DNA from: a virus
DNA length: 55,593 nucleotides
IMG/VR virus record: IMGVR_UViG_3300027749_000135
Span: 1 to 55,593 of that record
Reading direction: 5' to 3' (one strand)
Below the pieces are notes generated by a model. It was not told the origin of the DNA. It ran no database searches and saw only the letters and a list, made by a program, of their open reading frames with translations. Positions within the stretch are counted from its first letter, which is position 1. The number at the start of each line of letters is the position of its first letter. Below are positions 209 to 49,706 of this stretch, piece by piece. Position numbers and translations under genes: made by a program.

Positions 209-1012
209 ATGAAAATTGCATCCATTGAAGAATTTGAAGTCAGGTCTGTAAACGACTTTGTGAATTTAAAGAAGACCAAGCTATTTAAAGGCTATAGAGA
301 CCAAGGAAAAAAAGTAGGTCTTGCTTTTATTTTTGCTCGTGGTGCTCAGTCATTCGCATTAAAAGATCTGGATATTTCTTGGACTGATGATGAGATTGAC
401 AACTTTCTTGAAGACAATAAGCTTAATGATCATGTTCATGGCATCTTTGAGAAAAAGAAAGATCTTACTCTACGCCAGGCAAAGCTGGTTGCATGCGCAA
501 GCTTTATTAGAAACAATTTCTTTAAGACCTATCCAGGACTTCTTGATAGAGTACAAAAGAATCGTGCTTTTGCAAAAGAACATGGGTATATTCGCTCTGT
601 ATTTGGTTCTCTTCGTAGAGTTCCGCAGTTATTTCTTTCTGGAAAGGATGATCAAAAAGAATATGGTGAGGAATTTGCCAACTTAAATAACATTGCTACA
701 AATAGTGATATTCAAAACTTTGAGAGTGGATCTATTAATCGTCCTATTGCTATTATACATGAGTGGCTTATTGAAAACAAAATGAAAAGTAGAATCATTG
801 ATCAGGTACATGACGCTGTAGACTTCTATGTTCATCGTGATGAGTTAGATCTAATGTATAACAAGATCAAAGAAGAATTTGAAAGACGCTATCCAGAACA
901 ATGGGAAATTCCTCTTGAGATTGAAGAAAAGATCTGTGATCCCAAGCTAGGTGGCTTTTATAAAAGCGGAGTCTCTTATGATAAGTATAAGAAACTGGTT
1001 GCCAAGAAGTGA
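209..1012 (+). CDS. DNA polymerase family A, C-terminal half (motifs B and C)
   Basis: The 267 residues correspond to the fingers and second half of the palm of Pol I. Motif B is readable at residues 30-45 (R30, K34, F42 match E. coli R754, K758, Y766). The TYPG and GYIRSVFGSLRRVP segments follow, then N165/Q169 (E. coli N845/Q849). Motif C is QVHDAVDFY with H201-D202. Motif A and the 3'-5' exonuclease are absent; they are in the gene at 32387-34387. The first 27 residues have no counterpart in ordinary Pol I and probably belong to an insertion that contains the split point. Unusual residues are L38 where E. coli has F762, F42 for Y766, and A203 for E883. The stop overlaps the GTG of the helicase gene. 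The two halves would have to associate to make an enzyme (inference). Confidence 0.85.
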   Translation: MKIASIEEFEVRSVNDFVNLKKTKLFKGYRDQGKKVGLAFIFARGAQSFALKDLDISWTDDEIDNFLEDNKLNDHVHGIFEKKKDLTLRQAKLVACASFIRNNFFKTYPGLLDRVQKNRAFAKEHGYIRSVFGSLRRVPQLFLSGKDDQKEYGEEFANLNNIATNSDIQNFESGSINRPIAIIHEWLIENKMKSRIIDQVHDAVDFYVHRDELDLMYNKIKEEFERRYPEQWEIPLEIEEKICDPKLGGFYKSGVSYDKYKKLVAKK

Positions 1013-4254: not shown

Positions 4255-4692
4255 TTATTGGTTTTTCTGCTCTTTTTCGTCTTTTTTAGGGCTTATATTA
4301 GCAGCAATGTTAGCCGCTTTGTTACCACCAACATAGATACTCAGTATTAGTCCGGTAGCAAAGAAAAGCTGATCTAAAGGTAGAATTCTAGGCTTGATTA
4401 TGTATTGAACAATGAGGCCCTCTGCTAGTACAAGTACCATGGCAATGGCTATGTTACGTAGCTTCTCTTTTGATCCTTCATATTTTATGCCTTCAGGCAT
4501 TTTCATAGAGGATACAAAAGTGGCAGCCTGGTCCAGTCCTATATAGGACCCCACGATCATCATAAGAGAATAGATGGCCATCTCCATAGGAATAAGAACT
4601 GTGTCAACAGCTTGCAATATTAACAGCAAGAAGAATAGCACAAAATAGGCCCATACTGCCCAAACTGTTCCCATTTTGAATTTTTTTTTCAT
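4255..4692 (-). CDS. Integral membrane protein, holin candidate
   Basis: 145 residues with a basic N-terminus, hydrophobic helices at about 10-30, 34-54, 79-98 and 107-126, and a strongly charged C-terminal tail (KKDEKEQKNQ). Small size, several membrane helices, charged end and position directly after a peptidoglycan-active enzyme are the usual marks of a phage holin, which would permeabilise the inner membrane at lysis. No specific holin family is recognised. The ATG overlaps the stop of the upstream gene (ATGA), which implies coupled expression of the lysis pair. It could be another phage membrane protein. Confidence 0.6.
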   Translation of the reverse strand: MKKKFKMGTVWAVWAYFVLFFLLLILQAVDTVLIPMEMAIYSLMMIVGSYIGLDQAATFVSSMKMPEGIKYEGSKEKLRNIAIAMVLVLAEGLIVQYIIKPRILPLDQLFFATGLILSIYVGGNKAANIAANISPKKDEKEQKNQ

Positions 4693-32386: not shown

Positions 32387-34387
32387 ATGGCATTTGCTTT
32401 TGGAAATATTTCTGTAACTTCATCCAAGAAGTTGAAAGATGAAATAAACACAGAAATACTTCTTGCAGACAATTTTATTGAGAATGAACCTTATGCTCTA
32501 GTGCTTGTGGACAAGCATTATGATACAAGAAAGGTTAAAGCAATATCCACTCTTGTTAAAAAGTATTTTGATTCATATCGTATTGTGTTAGCATCCTATA
32601 TTGCTCCCACTGAAGAAAACATCAAGGGTGGCATAACCAGCTTTTATAAAAAGAACAAGACTACGTTCTCTCAATATGTTGAGGATCGTGGAGTTATTAT
32701 TACCTCTGGCTCTGCACTCTATGCTGTGTCTCGAGATGATCTGCAAGTAAATTATCTTTATGATGTTATTACCAATCCCAGGACCTATTTTTTTGATCAA
32801 CATACACGTCGTTATGTATTTCCAATTGACTCATTTAGCCAAATATTGACATTTGGTCAATCACTATCTCCATATTATGACACTTATAAGATGAACTTTG
32901 CTCGTTGGCAATTGGATGCAGCTGAAAAGAAATATGCTGAGCTATCGTCAGATCAAGAATTGGATGAAGTGATTCTTCACAAGATTGAAAGCACTGAAGA
33001 GTTTATAAGAGTTGTCAAACAACACTCTAGATATTCCCATATGGCGTGGGACTTGGAAACAAGTGGCTTCTCTCATGTAAGAGCCAAGATTGGTGTCATA
33101 ACTTTTTCTTTTGATGGAGTAAATGGTTATATCTGTCCATGGAATTTGGTGGATAAGTCAGTTCTTAATGAATGTCTTGGAAAGAAAACTCAAATAGGTG
33201 CTAACTTAAAATTTGACTGTAAATTCTTATGGCGTAATGGAATTCCTAATGCTGCAATTCATGAAGACATTGTTCAGCTAGGTCATGTGTTAAATGAGCT
33301 ACGTAGTAATAGCCTCAAAACCAATTCATATTTTTACACCAAGCATGGCGGGTATGAACAAGAGTTGGATGAGTTTATTGAAAACACCGGAGAAAATGAT
33401 TATACCAAGATTCCATTTTCAACCTTGGCCAAGTATGCTACCATGGACGCTATTGTAACATATCAGGTTTGGAAAAAGCAAAGAGAGCATTTGGCCTGGA
33501 TGGATGCAACTTTTCCTAATGAAAAGAATAAGTGGTATACCATGACCTCATACTATGAAGATATTATGATGCGTAGCTTACGCGCATTTGCTCAAATGGA
33601 GTATGACGGACTATATGTGTCCATGGATCGTCTTCATAGTGCACGAACCATGTTTCAAGAAAAGATCAAGAAGATTGAAGAAGAATTGCGTGTGGCAATG
33701 AACATCATAGGAAATTTTGACTTTAATTCACTTAAGGTATTAGGAACCAAGATAAAAGCTCTTGGTTGGCCTAATCTTGGAGTTTCAAAAGCTGGTGACT
33801 ACCTTACTGGAGAAGATCAACTTGAGCGATGGAAGCAAATGGGTCATAGAGAGGCTGAGCTTCTTCAAGAACTTAGAACCACCAATACTCTTCTTAATAC
33901 TTTTATTGGAAAGACAGATGATGAGGGTTGGGGAAAAAACATTAATCCTTATGCCGATGGAAGTTATCGCATGTGTGCCAATTATGCTCATATGTTGGCT
34001 GACACTGGCCGTAGCAAATGTAGGGATCCAAATCTTCAACAGATTCCAGCAAATGATGAAACAATTCCTGCTATTATTGATGTTCCATCAGATGACTATG
34101 TTATTTTTAGTCTAGACTATGCTTCACTTCAGGTTCGTCTTGCAGGAATTGATGCAGAGGATGAAACTCTTAGAAAGATTTATAATTCTAAAGAAAAGGA
34201 TTTTCATAGTTCAACAGCTTGGCCAATCTTTGCCAAAGACAAGAAATTCTTAAGAGTTAAAGACGACTCTGGCCATGAACACATCTTTCAGGAAAAAGAC
34301 AAAGTGTCTGTTAAAAGACAGAATGTAATTCATGTGATTGAGGCCAATCAGCTACAAACCGGTGATGATATTATTCTTGAAGCTTAA
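32387..34387 (+). CDS. DNA polymerase family A, N-terminal half (exonuclease and motif A)
   Basis: 666 residues. The first 200 are not recognised. A DnaQ-like proofreading exonuclease follows with Exo I D222/E224 (WDLETSG), Exo II D277 (NLKFD) and Exo III Y350/D354 (YATMD). The polymerase part has TGRSKCRDPNLQQIP (from 540), motif A SLDYASLQVRLAG with catalytic D577, and DFHSSTAW (605-612). It then stops: motifs B and C are on the separate gene at 209-1012. The last 50 residues (about 616-666, ending NQLQTGDDIILEA) are an extra beta-rich segment not found in Pol I. The steric-gate Glu of motif A (E. coli E710, in IELR) is Gln here (LQVR). The stop overlaps that of the convergent gene at 34384. 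Confidence 0.88.
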   Translation: MAFAFGNISVTSSKKLKDEINTEILLADNFIENEPYALVLVDKHYDTRKVKAISTLVKKYFDSYRIVLASYIAPTEENIKGGITSFYKKNKTTFSQYVEDRGVIITSGSALYAVSRDDLQVNYLYDVITNPRTYFFDQHTRRYVFPIDSFSQILTFGQSLSPYYDTYKMNFARWQLDAAEKKYAELSSDQELDEVILHKIESTEEFIRVVKQHSRYSHMAWDLETSGFSHVRAKIGVITFSFDGVNGYICPWNLVDKSVLNECLGKKTQIGANLKFDCKFLWRNGIPNAAIHEDIVQLGHVLNELRSNSLKTNSYFYTKHGGYEQELDEFIENTGENDYTKIPFSTLAKYATMDAIVTYQVWKKQREHLAWMDATFPNEKNKWYTMTSYYEDIMMRSLRAFAQMEYDGLYVSMDRLHSARTMFQEKIKKIEEELRVAMNIIGNFDFNSLKVLGTKIKALGWPNLGVSKAGDYLTGEDQLERWKQMGHREAELLQELRTTNTLLNTFIGKTDDEGWGKNINPYADGSYRMCANYAHMLADTGRSKCRDPNLQQIPANDETIPAIIDVPSDDYVIFSLDYASLQVRLAGIDAEDETLRKIYNSKEKDFHSSTAWPIFAKDKKFLRVKDDSGHEHIFQEKDKVSVKRQNVIHVIEANQLQTGDDIILEA

Positions 34388-45967: not shown

Positions 45968-46789
45968 ATGAAAAATATTGTCTGGTCAGCATCACGTATT
46001 AAAAAGTTTCACCAATGCAAAAATGAATACAATCTCAACTATAATGTTGGTGTTAAAGCTGATTGGGCCAGTCCTCATACTACCAAAGGCTCTGCGTTTC
46101 ATTATATTGCTGAACATTATCGTGATAATGAATCTTTATCTTTTGACCAGTGGGTTACCAAGCTTCGTGAATATGAAAATTATGGTAAAAAGCTTGATAT
46201 TGACTCTATCAATCTGCCTGAGCTTGAGGCTGCTTTTGGCAATTTTAAAGTATTCTGGAAAGAATTTGTTGTGGGTGGAAACTTTGATCAGATTCATACT
46301 GAAGAAAAAGTTGAATTCTCCCTGGATGGTGCAAGCTTTCAAGGTGTACTAGACCTGGTTCTTATTCGTGGCGATGAATACATTGTTCTTGATTACAAGA
46401 CTGCCAAGTCTGGCACTGGTGATCATGACCTGCAGCTTTCAGTTTATGTCATGGCTGTTCATGCCAAATATGCTCCTCAGGTTCCTATCAAAGACTTTTT
46501 GCAAAAGATTACTGTGTATATTTACTATCCTTATGCCAAGTACAAATCTTCTCCACTTGAGACTCTTAAGTCTATTAAGCTTAAGTTCTCTGATGTGGAT
46601 ATCAGCAAAGATTCTATTCTTCAAACTATTGATTCTATTGCTGAAGAAACTGAATGGAAGCCTACTGTTAGTTATGCTTGTCAGTTTTGTATCTTTCAAG
46701 GCCATGCTGATTATTGCTCTGCATCTCTAGCTCGTGGCTTTCATAAAGTACGTGGCCTGGTATACACCAATAAAAGCGCAGCTACATAG
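45968..46789 (+). CDS. Cas4/RecB-like PD-(D/E)XK nuclease with Fe-S cysteines
   Basis: 273 residues. The nuclease core has H46 (GSAFHYIAEH), D129 (FQGVLDLV), D142-x-K144 (VLDYKTAKS) and the Q-x3-Y motif QLSVY (156-160), the full RecB-type set. A single N-terminal Cys (C17, KKFHQCKNEY) and C238-x2-C241-x8-C250 near the end match the four ligands of the 4Fe-4S cluster in Cas4/AddB proteins. Probably a 5'-3' exonuclease for recombination or host DNA breakdown. It is preceded by its own promoter and converges on the terminase with an 8-base overlap. No CRISPR genes are near. Confidence 0.85.
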   Translation: MKNIVWSASRIKKFHQCKNEYNLNYNVGVKADWASPHTTKGSAFHYIAEHYRDNESLSFDQWVTKLREYENYGKKLDIDSINLPELEAAFGNFKVFWKEFVVGGNFDQIHTEEKVEFSLDGASFQGVLDLVLIRGDEYIVLDYKTAKSGTGDHDLQLSVYVMAVHAKYAPQVPIKDFLQKITVYIYYPYAKYKSSPLETLKSIKLKFSDVDISKDSILQTIDSIAEETEWKPTVSYACQFCIFQGHADYCSASLARGFHKVRGLVYTNKSAAT

Positions 46790-48824
46790 CTATTCCTATT
46801 CCCATTTTGTCCATAAAATCTTGCAAATTTTGTTTTGCAAGATCTTTACTAAGAATTCCTTCATGGCTTTCATTCCAGATCTCAGGAGCTCCTAGTGGAG
46901 CCAAAATCATGTTTGCAGCGTATACTGATCCGCATACAGCGTCAGATACGTCTTTTGCATTCATTCCAATAATGCTAGTTTCCCAAGCAGAATCGCCATG
47001 CGGATCAGGTATTGGACCATTAGTATGATCCACTTTAGGAGATCCTGTTTTGTTTCTTTTTACAATTTCTAAAGATTTTAAATTATTCTTAAAGAATATG
47101 TTTCTTCCCATCTTAAATCTCCCGGACTCTACCATAGAGTATAGGTGATAATACGGTTCAGTTGATCTGTCTACTGATAGCTTGGCAATATTAAAGCCAC
47201 GACTTTCAAGATATTGAACTGATGCCTCTGATTGAAATGTGTCATATGAGACTTGAGCAATATTCATATGACCTTTATTTCTTAAATCTTCAATAAAGAA
47301 TTTTACAGCATCAAGACTTATTCTTCCTCCATCAGGAGCAATTGCAATACTGAAGTCAGTTATAAACATTATCTCACCGGTATCTGCATTCTTTTCCACA
47401 TGAGTAGCTGCAATACCAGTTATGTCTCCTGTTGTACTAGAGTCAATGTGTATTGCTCGTGGAAGATGTGGCTTATAATAGAAAGAAACTTTTAGCCCAT
47501 CATTTTTAAAGAATTGAGAGTGCACTTTATTCCATATGAGATCTTTTGGATCATCTTTGGTTGATGCAGTAATATAGGTATAAAGATTTTTTAATTTGGT
47601 TGAAAAACAGCTATCAATGCTTTCATAATTCATAAATAAACGAGCCTGACTACCAGATGGTAGCCCAGCCAGGTCTCTTAGGGATTTTACTGGATTATTC
47701 TTAAATGAGTTTTTTAAGTCTCCAGGAACCCAAAGAACCTGACTAACATCAAAATTATTTATTTCTGAGTCTTCTAGTATTTGAGGAGGACGCCCTGCTC
47801 CACCTCTATAGATAGGAAATAAATTATTCATGTCATGATTTTCTGGCGACCACTCCCACATGGATCCACGTACTATCATATTGGTGTGATCTTCTTTTGC
47901 GTTACCATTTATATACTGATCAACAGCTCCGCTTATATCATCAGGAGACGAGTCTAGGATAACTCTTCCCCAATAATTACCTTTCATGGTACGAACCTGA
48001 ACGCGGTTTCTAAGTTCCCAAAATGTATCCATGATATAGTCGTCTGTCATTCCGGCCTCTCTAAAGTGAGAGAGCTCTGTAACTGCACCACCCACCAGAT
48101 TTAGACCTAGAAGTCTGTGTAAGCTAGAAACAATTTTAATTTGAGTTCCATTGGATATGTGAATATGAGAGCTAGGAGAAGCTGTGGTCCAGAATATTTT
48201 ATCTATCTGATTGTTATGAGCTTGTTCTGCTTCTCTTTTGGCCATGCCGTCTCGTGTATGAACCTTCTCATACATTGGACTATTTTCAAGAGCAAGAAGA
48301 AATGGCTCAAGTAACGTTTCTTGGACTTTTTCAATTGAAAATGATAAAAATGCTCGGGCTATTGGAGATGCAGGGTTCAAGCCTAGATATCTTTTAGCGT
48401 TTCTCATTAACGCAATATGCGTATCACAATAGAGTGACATAAACATAGCAGCGTACGTTTTTCCCCATCCCATATGCGGGTATAGAATTAGATTGCGATA
48501 AGGCGTTGTAGGATTCATAAAATCCAAGAATGTTTGTTTTACTCGTGGATAAGTATGCTCTGCAAGTGGACCTATCCACTCTTCAGTCATAAACTCTTCA
48601 GGAGTTGGTGGTTTACGCTTATAAAAGATTTTCCAAGAATTTCCAATATAGTGAAGCTTTTTGGCCTCTGAAAGATTTTCATTATTTACCAGATAGTCTA
48701 GCGCCAGTTGAATTTTATTAAAATCAAAGTTTTTAAGCTGCTCTCTGGAAAGAGTAGACATATCTCCGGCCATGAGATCATCAAGAATCACTGAAGTATT
48801 TTGAACAATTTTAATGTCTGACAT
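46782..48824 (-). CDS. Terminase large subunit, gp17-like
   Basis: 680 residues. Walker A PHMGWGKT (116-123), acidic Walker B section GGAVTELSHF with E250, coupling motif near SSPDD (292-296), then the RNase H-fold nuclease: HIDSSTTGDITG (D461), VSYDTFQS (D528) and KDVSDAVCGS (acidic, about 645). It drives DNA packaging into the prohead and cuts the concatemer. A small terminase subunit is not evident alongside. The start at 48824 has no strong SD. Confidence 0.9.
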   Translation of the reverse strand: MSDIKIVQNTSVILDDLMAGDMSTLSREQLKNFDFNKIQLALDYLVNNENLSEAKKLHYIGNSWKIFYKRKPPTPEEFMTEEWIGPLAEHTYPRVKQTFLDFMNPTTPYRNLILYPHMGWGKTYAAMFMSLYCDTHIALMRNAKRYLGLNPASPIARAFLSFSIEKVQETLLEPFLLALENSPMYEKVHTRDGMAKREAEQAHNNQIDKIFWTTASPSSHIHISNGTQIKIVSSLHRLLGLNLVGGAVTELSHFREAGMTDDYIMDTFWELRNRVQVRTMKGNYWGRVILDSSPDDISGAVDQYINGNAKEDHTNMIVRGSMWEWSPENHDMNNLFPIYRGGAGRPPQILEDSEINNFDVSQVLWVPGDLKNSFKNNPVKSLRDLAGLPSGSQARLFMNYESIDSCFSTKLKNLYTYITASTKDDPKDLIWNKVHSQFFKNDGLKVSFYYKPHLPRAIHIDSSTTGDITGIAATHVEKNADTGEIMFITDFSIAIAPDGGRISLDAVKFFIEDLRNKGHMNIAQVSYDTFQSEASVQYLESRGFNIAKLSVDRSTEPYYHLYSMVESGRFKMGRNIFFKNNLKSLEIVKRNKTGSPKVDHTNGPIPDPHGDSAWETSIIGMNAKDVSDAVCGSVYAANMILAPLGAPEIWNESHEGILSKDLAKQNLQDFMDKMGIGIAM

Positions 48825-48831
48825 ATCTTAT

Positions 48832-48839
48832 GTTATATT
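48832..48839 (+). promoter_or_regulatory. Extended -10 promoter for riboswitch transcript
   Basis: TGTTATATT-type box: TG, one base, TATATT (48834-48839). A start near 48846 would place the riboswitch (from about 48870) in the leader. No convincing -35 box. Confidence 0.5.
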
Positions 48840-48869
48840 CCTATCTAAATAGTAGCTTACTAACTATTA

Positions 48870-48958
48870 ATCAGAAAGCTGTGGAATTCAGCGCCGGCCT
48901 CCGCCGACTGTCATAAAAAGTCAGACCTGAAAAATCACTAATCGATGTGGAGGTCGAC
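48870..48958 (+). promoter_or_regulatory. Cobalamin riboswitch (Cbl-II/variant class), SD in L13
   Basis: The core reads as a B12 riboswitch. P4 is GCTG (48878-48881) with CAGC (48889-48892), holding the T-loop-like loop TGGAATT, close to the TGAAATT loop of the known env8 Cbl-II RNA. P5 is CGGC (48895-48898) with GCCG (48903-48906), loop CTCC, followed by ACTGT; P6-like GACT/AGTC pairs at 48906-48909/48919-48922. P3 is TCAG (48871-48874) with CTGA (48927-48930). A final hairpin TCGA/TCGA (48942-48945, 48954-48957) displays TGTGGAGG, whose GGAG is complementary to the P5 loop. That GGAGG is the SD of the next gene, so cobalamin binding should favour the kissing pair and switch translation off (inference from family). 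Confidence 0.8.
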
Positions 48959-49540
48959 GTGCAATCATTTTTCTCTAAGCAGTCCAATGTGACTGTGGTA
49001 ATATCTTTATCTCTTATTTTCCTGGCTATAGTTGCAAGGATATTTCATGTGGCAGACAACTTTTCTCCAATAGGCGCAATTGCTCTTTTTGCTGGAACAA
49101 TGCTAGCAGGAAATTCACGATGGTTTATACCTTTTGCAGGTCTAGCGCTTAGCGATGTAATTCTTGCGCTAACCAATACATATGGCCTAAGTGTGTATCA
49201 ATATCTTTCAGGAAGCCCAGCGGTATATTTGGCATTTTTACCAATTATTCTTTATGGCTTCATGAATAAATCTAAGAATCCATTGGTTACTCTTGCAACA
49301 ATTCCTGCAGCTTCATTAACATTTTTTATCATATCTAATTTTGTGACCTGGATTAATTTAATTCCTGCATGGCCTAGCATGTACGCCATGACATGGGACG
49401 GTTTAATGCAATGCTATGTGGCAGCAATTCCTTTCTTTAAGAATACTATAATGAGTGATACTGTTTATTCAGCTGTTCTTTTTGGAGCTTATTACTTATC
49501 TTTGGTTGGAGTAAAAAAACTTACAAAAGTACAACTGTAA
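48959..49540 (+). CDS. DUF6580-type membrane transporter (ECF S-component-like)
   Basis: 193 residues and six hydrophobic helices (about 12-30, 36-52, 57-75, 80-100, 105-130, 165-187). HVADNFSPIGAIALFAGTML is the hallmark start of DUF6580 putative transport proteins, a family that resembles substrate-binding S components of ECF vitamin transporters. The cobalamin riboswitch in its leader suggests it takes up a corrinoid. The start is taken as GTG 48959, five bases after GGAGG, rather than GTG 48947 which would put the SD inside the gene. An auxiliary metabolic gene for a phage. No ATPase or T component is seen, so it would rely on the host. Confidence 0.75.
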   Translation: MQSFFSKQSNVTVVISLSLIFLAIVARIFHVADNFSPIGAIALFAGTMLAGNSRWFIPFAGLALSDVILALTNTYGLSVYQYLSGSPAVYLAFLPIILYGFMNKSKNPLVTLATIPAASLTFFIISNFVTWINLIPAWPSMYAMTWDGLMQCYVAAIPFFKNTIMSDTVYSAVLFGAYYLSLVGVKKLTKVQL

Positions 49541-49586: not shown

Positions 49587-49604
49587 AGGACCCGTGAGGG
49601 TCCT
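49587..49604 (+). terminator. Rho-independent terminator after transporter
   Basis: Stem AGGACCC (49587-49593) with GGGTCCT (49598-49604), loop GTGA (GNRA), followed by TTTGTTG. A TATAAT at 49575-49580 stands just before it and may be chance. Confidence 0.8.
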
Positions 49605-49706
49605 TTTGTTGTCTAATAACTAACTATATATTAATATGAGTGTCTTGGAAAGAAGCCTAGTAATCTCTTGGCTTTGAGATGCGAAAAAATTTATAAAGGA
49701 TATTAA

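Follow-up and report, generated by a model that had tools for sequence, protein, structure and literature searches.

A cobalamin-riboswitch-like leader before a DUF6580 gene in a phage, and predicted B12-uptake units in other aquatic viruses

The DUF6580 locus and its leader

The window, i.e., the whole stretch of DNA analysed here, is a virus record of 55,593 b, and two sister contigs (52.7 and 93.6 kb) share its sequence. DUF6580 is a single gene between a divergent terminase-like gene (46,782–48,824, minus strand) and an intrinsic terminator on the plus strand (AGGACCC-GTGA-GGGTCCT, then a T run; 49,587–49,608). It occupies positions 48,959–49,540 of the plus strand and specifies a protein of 193 amino acids from its likely GTG start at 48,959; the reading frame can be read from a GTG at 48,947. 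A preliminary description of this DNA had named the gene DUF6580, and its product indeed matches PF20221 with an E-value of 1.5e-39 and 136.3 bits, past the Pfam gathering score of 27 bits.

The leader of this gene (plus strand) includes an aptamer-like core, P3 to P6 (48,871–48,930), which is delineated by sequence reading, Rfam, RNA folding, the models R2 and R3 described below, and covariation. P3 (UCAG/CUGA; 48,871–48,874 with 48,927–48,930) is followed by J3/4 (AAA; 48,875–48,877) and by P4 (GCUG/CAGC; 48,878–48,881 with 48,889–48,892), which carries the T-loop-like L4, UGGAAUU (48,882–48,888). P5 (CGGC/GCCG; 48,895–48,898 with 48,903–48,906) ends in L5, CUCC (48,899–48,902), and P6 (CUG/CAG; 48,908–48,910 with 48,922–48,924) leads over J6/3 (AC; 48,925–48,926) back into P3. 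No P1 helix is recognisable in the leader. Downstream of the core, RNA folding gives a P13-like hairpin (UCGAU/GUCGA; 48,942–48,946 with 48,953–48,957), of which the loop L13, GUGGAG (48,947–48,952), contains most of the Shine–Dalgarno (SD) sequence GGAGG (48,949–48,953), located 5 nt before GTG 48,959. L5 is complementary to L13. Direct reading of the sequence thus bears out the arrangement described earlier, namely P3, P4 with UGGAAUU, P5 with CUCC and a distal hairpin showing GGAG, as well as the complementarity of CUCC to GGAG and the role of the latter as the SD of the DUF6580 gene. The 4-nt SD core is present in 24 of the 45 genes checked in this phage.

On its own, the isolated aptamer stretch adopts the P3–P6 fold, but when the full leader is folded without constraints, its minimum-energy structure is a different, long helix (GGCCUCC/GGAGGUC; 48,896–48,902 with 48,949–48,955). 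The fold energy is unremarkable (z between −0.6 and −1.5).

The promoter of the leader is putative. A possible, weak extended −10 box, TGTTATATT, can be read at 48,831–48,839 (plus strand), and this part of the earlier promoter claim stands; the promoter scan returned neither a matching −35 partner nor an excess over shuffled sequences.

Copies of the leader are all near-identical, which leaves no covariation within its own lineage. A tight DNA pattern of the leader identified just the two sister contigs among the viral contigs, the remaining 13 matches being due to chance. Searching the viral contigs with the terminase for nearer phage relatives likewise yielded only the two sisters, and the terminase is 25–27% identical to those of Vibrio siphophages. 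Separate ORFs of the window (209–1012 and 32,387–34,387) match different parts of the DNA polymerase family phrog_17, an arrangement as if the polymerase were split. One sister contig specifies a 378-aa lipoprotein (G001:C1:30075-31211), by eye similar to substrate-binding proteins of the BMP family (purine nucleoside type), and possibly a second uptake gene of this phage.

Similarity to and divergence from cobalamin riboswitches

The Rfam model for AdoCbl-II riboswitches (RF01689) gives 17.5 bits for a match at 48,863–48,935 (sense strand), against a gathering score of 36.5; the E-value is 0.15 for 231 nt against 4227 Rfam families, and roughly 0.01, by our estimate, when rescaled to one family and the whole window. 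No match was listed in a default genome-wide search with the same model, nor did Rfam return any for the whole window at the gathering cut-off and E 5. The class I model (RF00174), with its P7–P11 periphery, has no match in the window. Rfam supports the proposed riboswitch with a hit at the right place and strand, and fails it on the gathering score and on RF00174.

Two further models were built with the leader left out. R2, made from 18 phage riboswitch matches, has 48,853–48,956 as its best match in the window (14.5 bits, E 0.10 for 55.6 kb and both strands), and the core model R3 ranks 48,878–48,925 first (15.0 bits, E 0.14; the runner-up in the window has 8.4 bits); most source sequences are common to R2 and R3, which makes the two models less than fully independent. 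A genuine riboswitch of class I (in contig L004) attains 108 bits in Rfam, yet only 19 by R3, compared to 15 for the leader. All pairs in the P3–P6 core with its T-loop are standard and there are compensatory changes in P4–P6: in an R3-fitted alignment that includes the window, both sides of pairs in P4, P5 and P6 have changed with respect to the relatives. None of 500 shuffles and no slid register reaches the covariation score of this alignment, which, being fitted to the structure, leans towards it.

The leader also has the L5–L13 complement with its regulatory hairpin. We rejected the CUCC/GGAG complementarity as sufficient proof by itself, since a 5-nt match to the complement of the loop arises in 3.5% of shuffles and occurs in 2 of 45 other genes of the phage; the longer complement between L5/P5 and the SD (7 bp, one of them G-U) arises less often, in 0.2% of shuffles. 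Taken as a whole, the leader is better than chance.

It is divergent all the same. J3/4 (AAA) and J6/3 (AC) are shorter in the leader than in all relatives aligned, and the conserved RF01689 junctions, J3/4 of the GAAA type (GAAA or GGAA in the relatives) and J6/3 of the AAUG/AGUG type, are absent from it. In the env8 riboswitch, J3/4 (G19-A20) and J6/3 (A68) supply nucleotides that stack around the face of the ligand (PMC11838749). With the gathering score missed and both junctions shortened, we call the leader cobalamin-riboswitch-like and do not count it as a confirmed member of the family; membership of RF01689 was rejected on these two defining features, and the altered junctions, the lack of a recognisable P1 and the competing helix in the full leader are why it is not filed there. 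The leader seems made to function in the manner of a cobalamin riboswitch, possibly with an altered ligand pocket or regulatory sign.

With the AdoCbl-II riboswitches, including Cbl-IIa elements of the env8HyCbl type, it shares a P3–P6 core without P7–P11, the L5–L13 complement, the SD in L13 and, presumably, a translational output; its L4, GUGGAAUUC, is identical to that of some env8-type variants (L084). It differs from them in score (17.5 vs 36.5 bits), in its short junctions, in the lack of a clear P1, and in the sequence of P5/L5 and P6, which is nearer class I. The core letters ACUGU...AGUCAG...ACCUG and the C-rich L5 are shared with the class I consensus (RF00174), from which the leader differs by lacking the P7–P11 periphery.

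DUF6580 in other viruses and in bacteria

The predicted structure of DUF6580 (AlphaFold2, 42 sequences; pLDDT 85.4, pTM 0.80) is suggestive of ECF S-components and BtuM. The top six PDB matches in Foldseek comprise S-components specific to pantothenate, biotin or thiamin together with cobalamin-bound BtuM (probability 0.77–0.98, TM-scores 0.44–0.61, E-values of 0.14–0.65 that are not significant alone), and BtuM has the highest TM-score among them. The likeness to BtuM and the ECF S-components (CbrT, BioY, ThiT, PanT) covers the predicted fold, the small polytopic membrane protein and the lack of ATPase subunits near the gene; no sequence-family match to these proteins is detectable, and the conserved motifs, PHPPNFTP and AIPFF, belong to DUF6580. 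Cys152 is nearly invariant.

A protein-alignment scan found DUF6580 encoded in 90 viral stretches, of which 80 were kept, some of them near-duplicates. Cobalamin riboswitches identified with model R1 lie upstream of DUF6580 in 16 of these 80, and in the eight cases checked with Rfam, RF01689 is found directly upstream with 58–93 bits in all eight. BtuB-like receptors adjoin DUF6580 in 33 loci examined (our count, L076 included); for the three receptors scanned, the best family is the B12 receptor family TIGR01779 (TonB-B12), below cut-off. Compact operons of a riboswitch, DUF6580 and an overlapping BtuB-like gene occur in L111, L129, L141, L142, L148, L152/L153 and L165. Like the window, such operons (L111, L129, L141, L148, L153, L165) have a cobalamin-type leader directly before DUF6580, but their leaders are genuine members of RF01689, have a different expression platform and are followed by a BtuB-like gene as well, in marine T4-like phages, whereas the window has one gene in an unrelated phage. 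No match to the BtuB-like HMM was found in the window's phage or its sisters.

With a strict Cbl-II pattern, we found 23 contigs in which a near-identical env8-type element precedes a BtuB-like gene by about 30 nt; such elements stand before receptor genes in L058–L080, L084, L092, L099 and L100, and a close variant scores 69.6 bits in Rfam. They follow the same plan as the leader, with the SD in L13. We take the element to be the laboratory env8 sequence; its numbering agrees with G19, A20 and A68 as published. In a 115-kb phage contig (L076:1644-4040), DUF6580, an env8-type riboswitch and a BtuB-like gene follow each other on one strand. T4-type gp23 or gp20 on several module-bearing contigs identifies these as phages and not host fragments, and L099 carries a T4-type portal gene. 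The L5/L13 letters are not the same in each lineage, yet they remain complementary (CUUG/CAAG in the env8 type, UUCCAGG/CCUGGAA in L111, UUCCUG/CAGGAA in L148, CCUCC/GGAGG in the window), with several single cases no better than shuffles. GenBank phages yielded no DUF6580 by tblastn, no env8-type element, and only partial, 20% matches to BtuB.

Units of this sort, with a predicted role in B12 uptake, occur in many other aquatic viruses. A wider reading, in which aquatic dsDNA phages broadly carry riboswitch-controlled B12-uptake modules (riboswitch–DUF6580–BtuB, riboswitch–BtuB and riboswitch–DUF6580), env8 is a phage element and the window is a minimal variant with a reduced pocket that may read a different corrinoid, is tentative, and we would put it at slightly less than even odds.

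Other arrangements were seen. In L177, a weak R3 match (1972–2047, 20.5 bits) stands just before a BtuB-like ORF, and the hairpin GAGCA..TGCTC farther downstream exposes CAAGG, the complement of CCTTG in the P5 region. Five stretches (L121, L126, L137, L127, L130) have a conserved leader, ATTACCGTATTTAACAATAGAGGTTGGGGTAAT, directly before DUF6580; its SD is enclosed in a hairpin, it has no cobalamin aptamer and its fold energy is ordinary. In a further phage contig (L013:3992-6782), DUF6580 is followed by ORFs that resemble, by eye, a TctA-type transporter and its binding protein.

Among Bacteroidota, 33 of 99 genomes have DUF6580 above the Pfam cut-off. In 11 of 34 genomes searched (G008, G011, G022, G043, G073, G077, G081, G082, G084, G097, G101), an RF00174 riboswitch lies 0.11–3.4 kb upstream on the same strand, and these genomes have only one to three RF00174 matches each. 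In a Komeilibacteria genome, genes for a ribonucleotide reductase (RNR) large subunit, a corrinoid adenosyltransferase and DUF4430 are followed by DUF6580. The linkage to riboswitches and BtuB-like receptors and the predicted structure support the earlier prediction of a B12-uptake gene: DUF6580 is probably a vitamin B12 importer.

The proposed switch and alternative readings

Readable in the DNA are an aptamer-like core, complementary L5 and L13, an SD inside L13, one gene and one terminator. We interpret the unit, with a probability of about 0.68, as a B12-repressed, translation-off uptake cassette, the leader of which would be a minimal, divergent cobalamin-type riboswitch; ligand and sign are what we infer here. 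A corrinoid would bind the P3–P6 core, upon which L5 would pair with L13 and block ribosome entry, as in env8, where ligand-driven L5–L13 pairing represses translation (PMC11838749, PMC10653944). Under B12 scarcity the hairpin would open and the S-component-like protein would be made, bringing corrinoid across the inner membrane. Of the B12-sensing, translation-off control proposed earlier, the cobalamin-riboswitch-like leader with its SD in L13 holds, short of the Rfam gathering score.

The sub-threshold scores, shortened junctions and ordinary fold energy would also suit a cobalamin riboswitch that has decayed, or a resemblance due to chance, with ligand binding lost and expression constitutive or limited only by the hairpin at the ribosome binding site. 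We consider this improbable, given that R2 and R3 both place the leader first in the window, that its core pairs are all still standard, and that the gene just downstream of it has riboswitches of this kind in other phages. Somewhat less likely, as uptake genes are normally under B12 repression, is an opposite or other logic, in which the helix 48,896–48,902/48,949–48,955 hides the SD in the ligand-free state and aptamer folding frees it, or a different ligand is read. That helix is the minimum-energy fold, J3/4 and J6/3 are unlike those of the relatives, and activating corrinoid riboswitches exist (PMC10653944); however, the aptamer is transcribed first and can fold first, and L5–L13 pairing would still cover the SD. 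Slimmer again are the chances that DUF6580 transports another vitamin or a metal and that its linkage to B12 is incidental: pantothenate, biotin and thiamin S-components also appear in Foldseek and many phage copies have no cobalamin riboswitch or receptor nearby, but BtuM has the top TM-score and the gene is repeatedly paired with BtuB-like receptors in phages and cobalamin riboswitches in bacteria. The best reading remains a B12-repressed cassette, a divergent form of a module that is widespread in phages.

The preliminary description had linked the gene to a B12-dependent RNR. Neither the window nor its two sisters yielded an RNR (no PF02867 in G000–G002; contigs that may be incomplete), 29 other contigs have no NrdJ above cut-off, and five RNRs sampled from other phages with the module all belong to class I; this rationale is therefore unsupported. 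The phage would probably benefit by sustaining B12-dependent metabolism of the host during infection and not by feeding an RNR of its own; host methionine synthase as the beneficiary is a guess.

Vitamin B12 is scarce in the sea, and the unit suggests that phages actively secure it for infected cells. DUF6580 gains a testable function, B12 uptake; few kinds of riboswitch have been reported from phages, and a corrinoid-sensing leader would be added to them. Its variant junctions are a natural experiment on which aptamer nucleotides set corrinoid choice. The openly licensed papers searched do not mention DUF6580 and the open literature searched reports no phage cobalamin riboswitch; most subscription journals and preprints lay outside the search, which limits any claim of novelty. 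No riboswitches were reported from pelagimyophages surveyed with Riboswitch Scanner (PMC7029224), so phage cobalamin elements may have been overlooked. A glutamine riboswitch reported in the methylophage Melnitz (PMC9004378) is likewise a virus-encoded cis-regulatory aptamer on a virus gene, with another ligand and gene. In one of our phage contigs, a glutamine riboswitch and a freshwater-2 RNA flank a BtuB–DUF6580 pair (L155:1684-1731 and 4488-4562).
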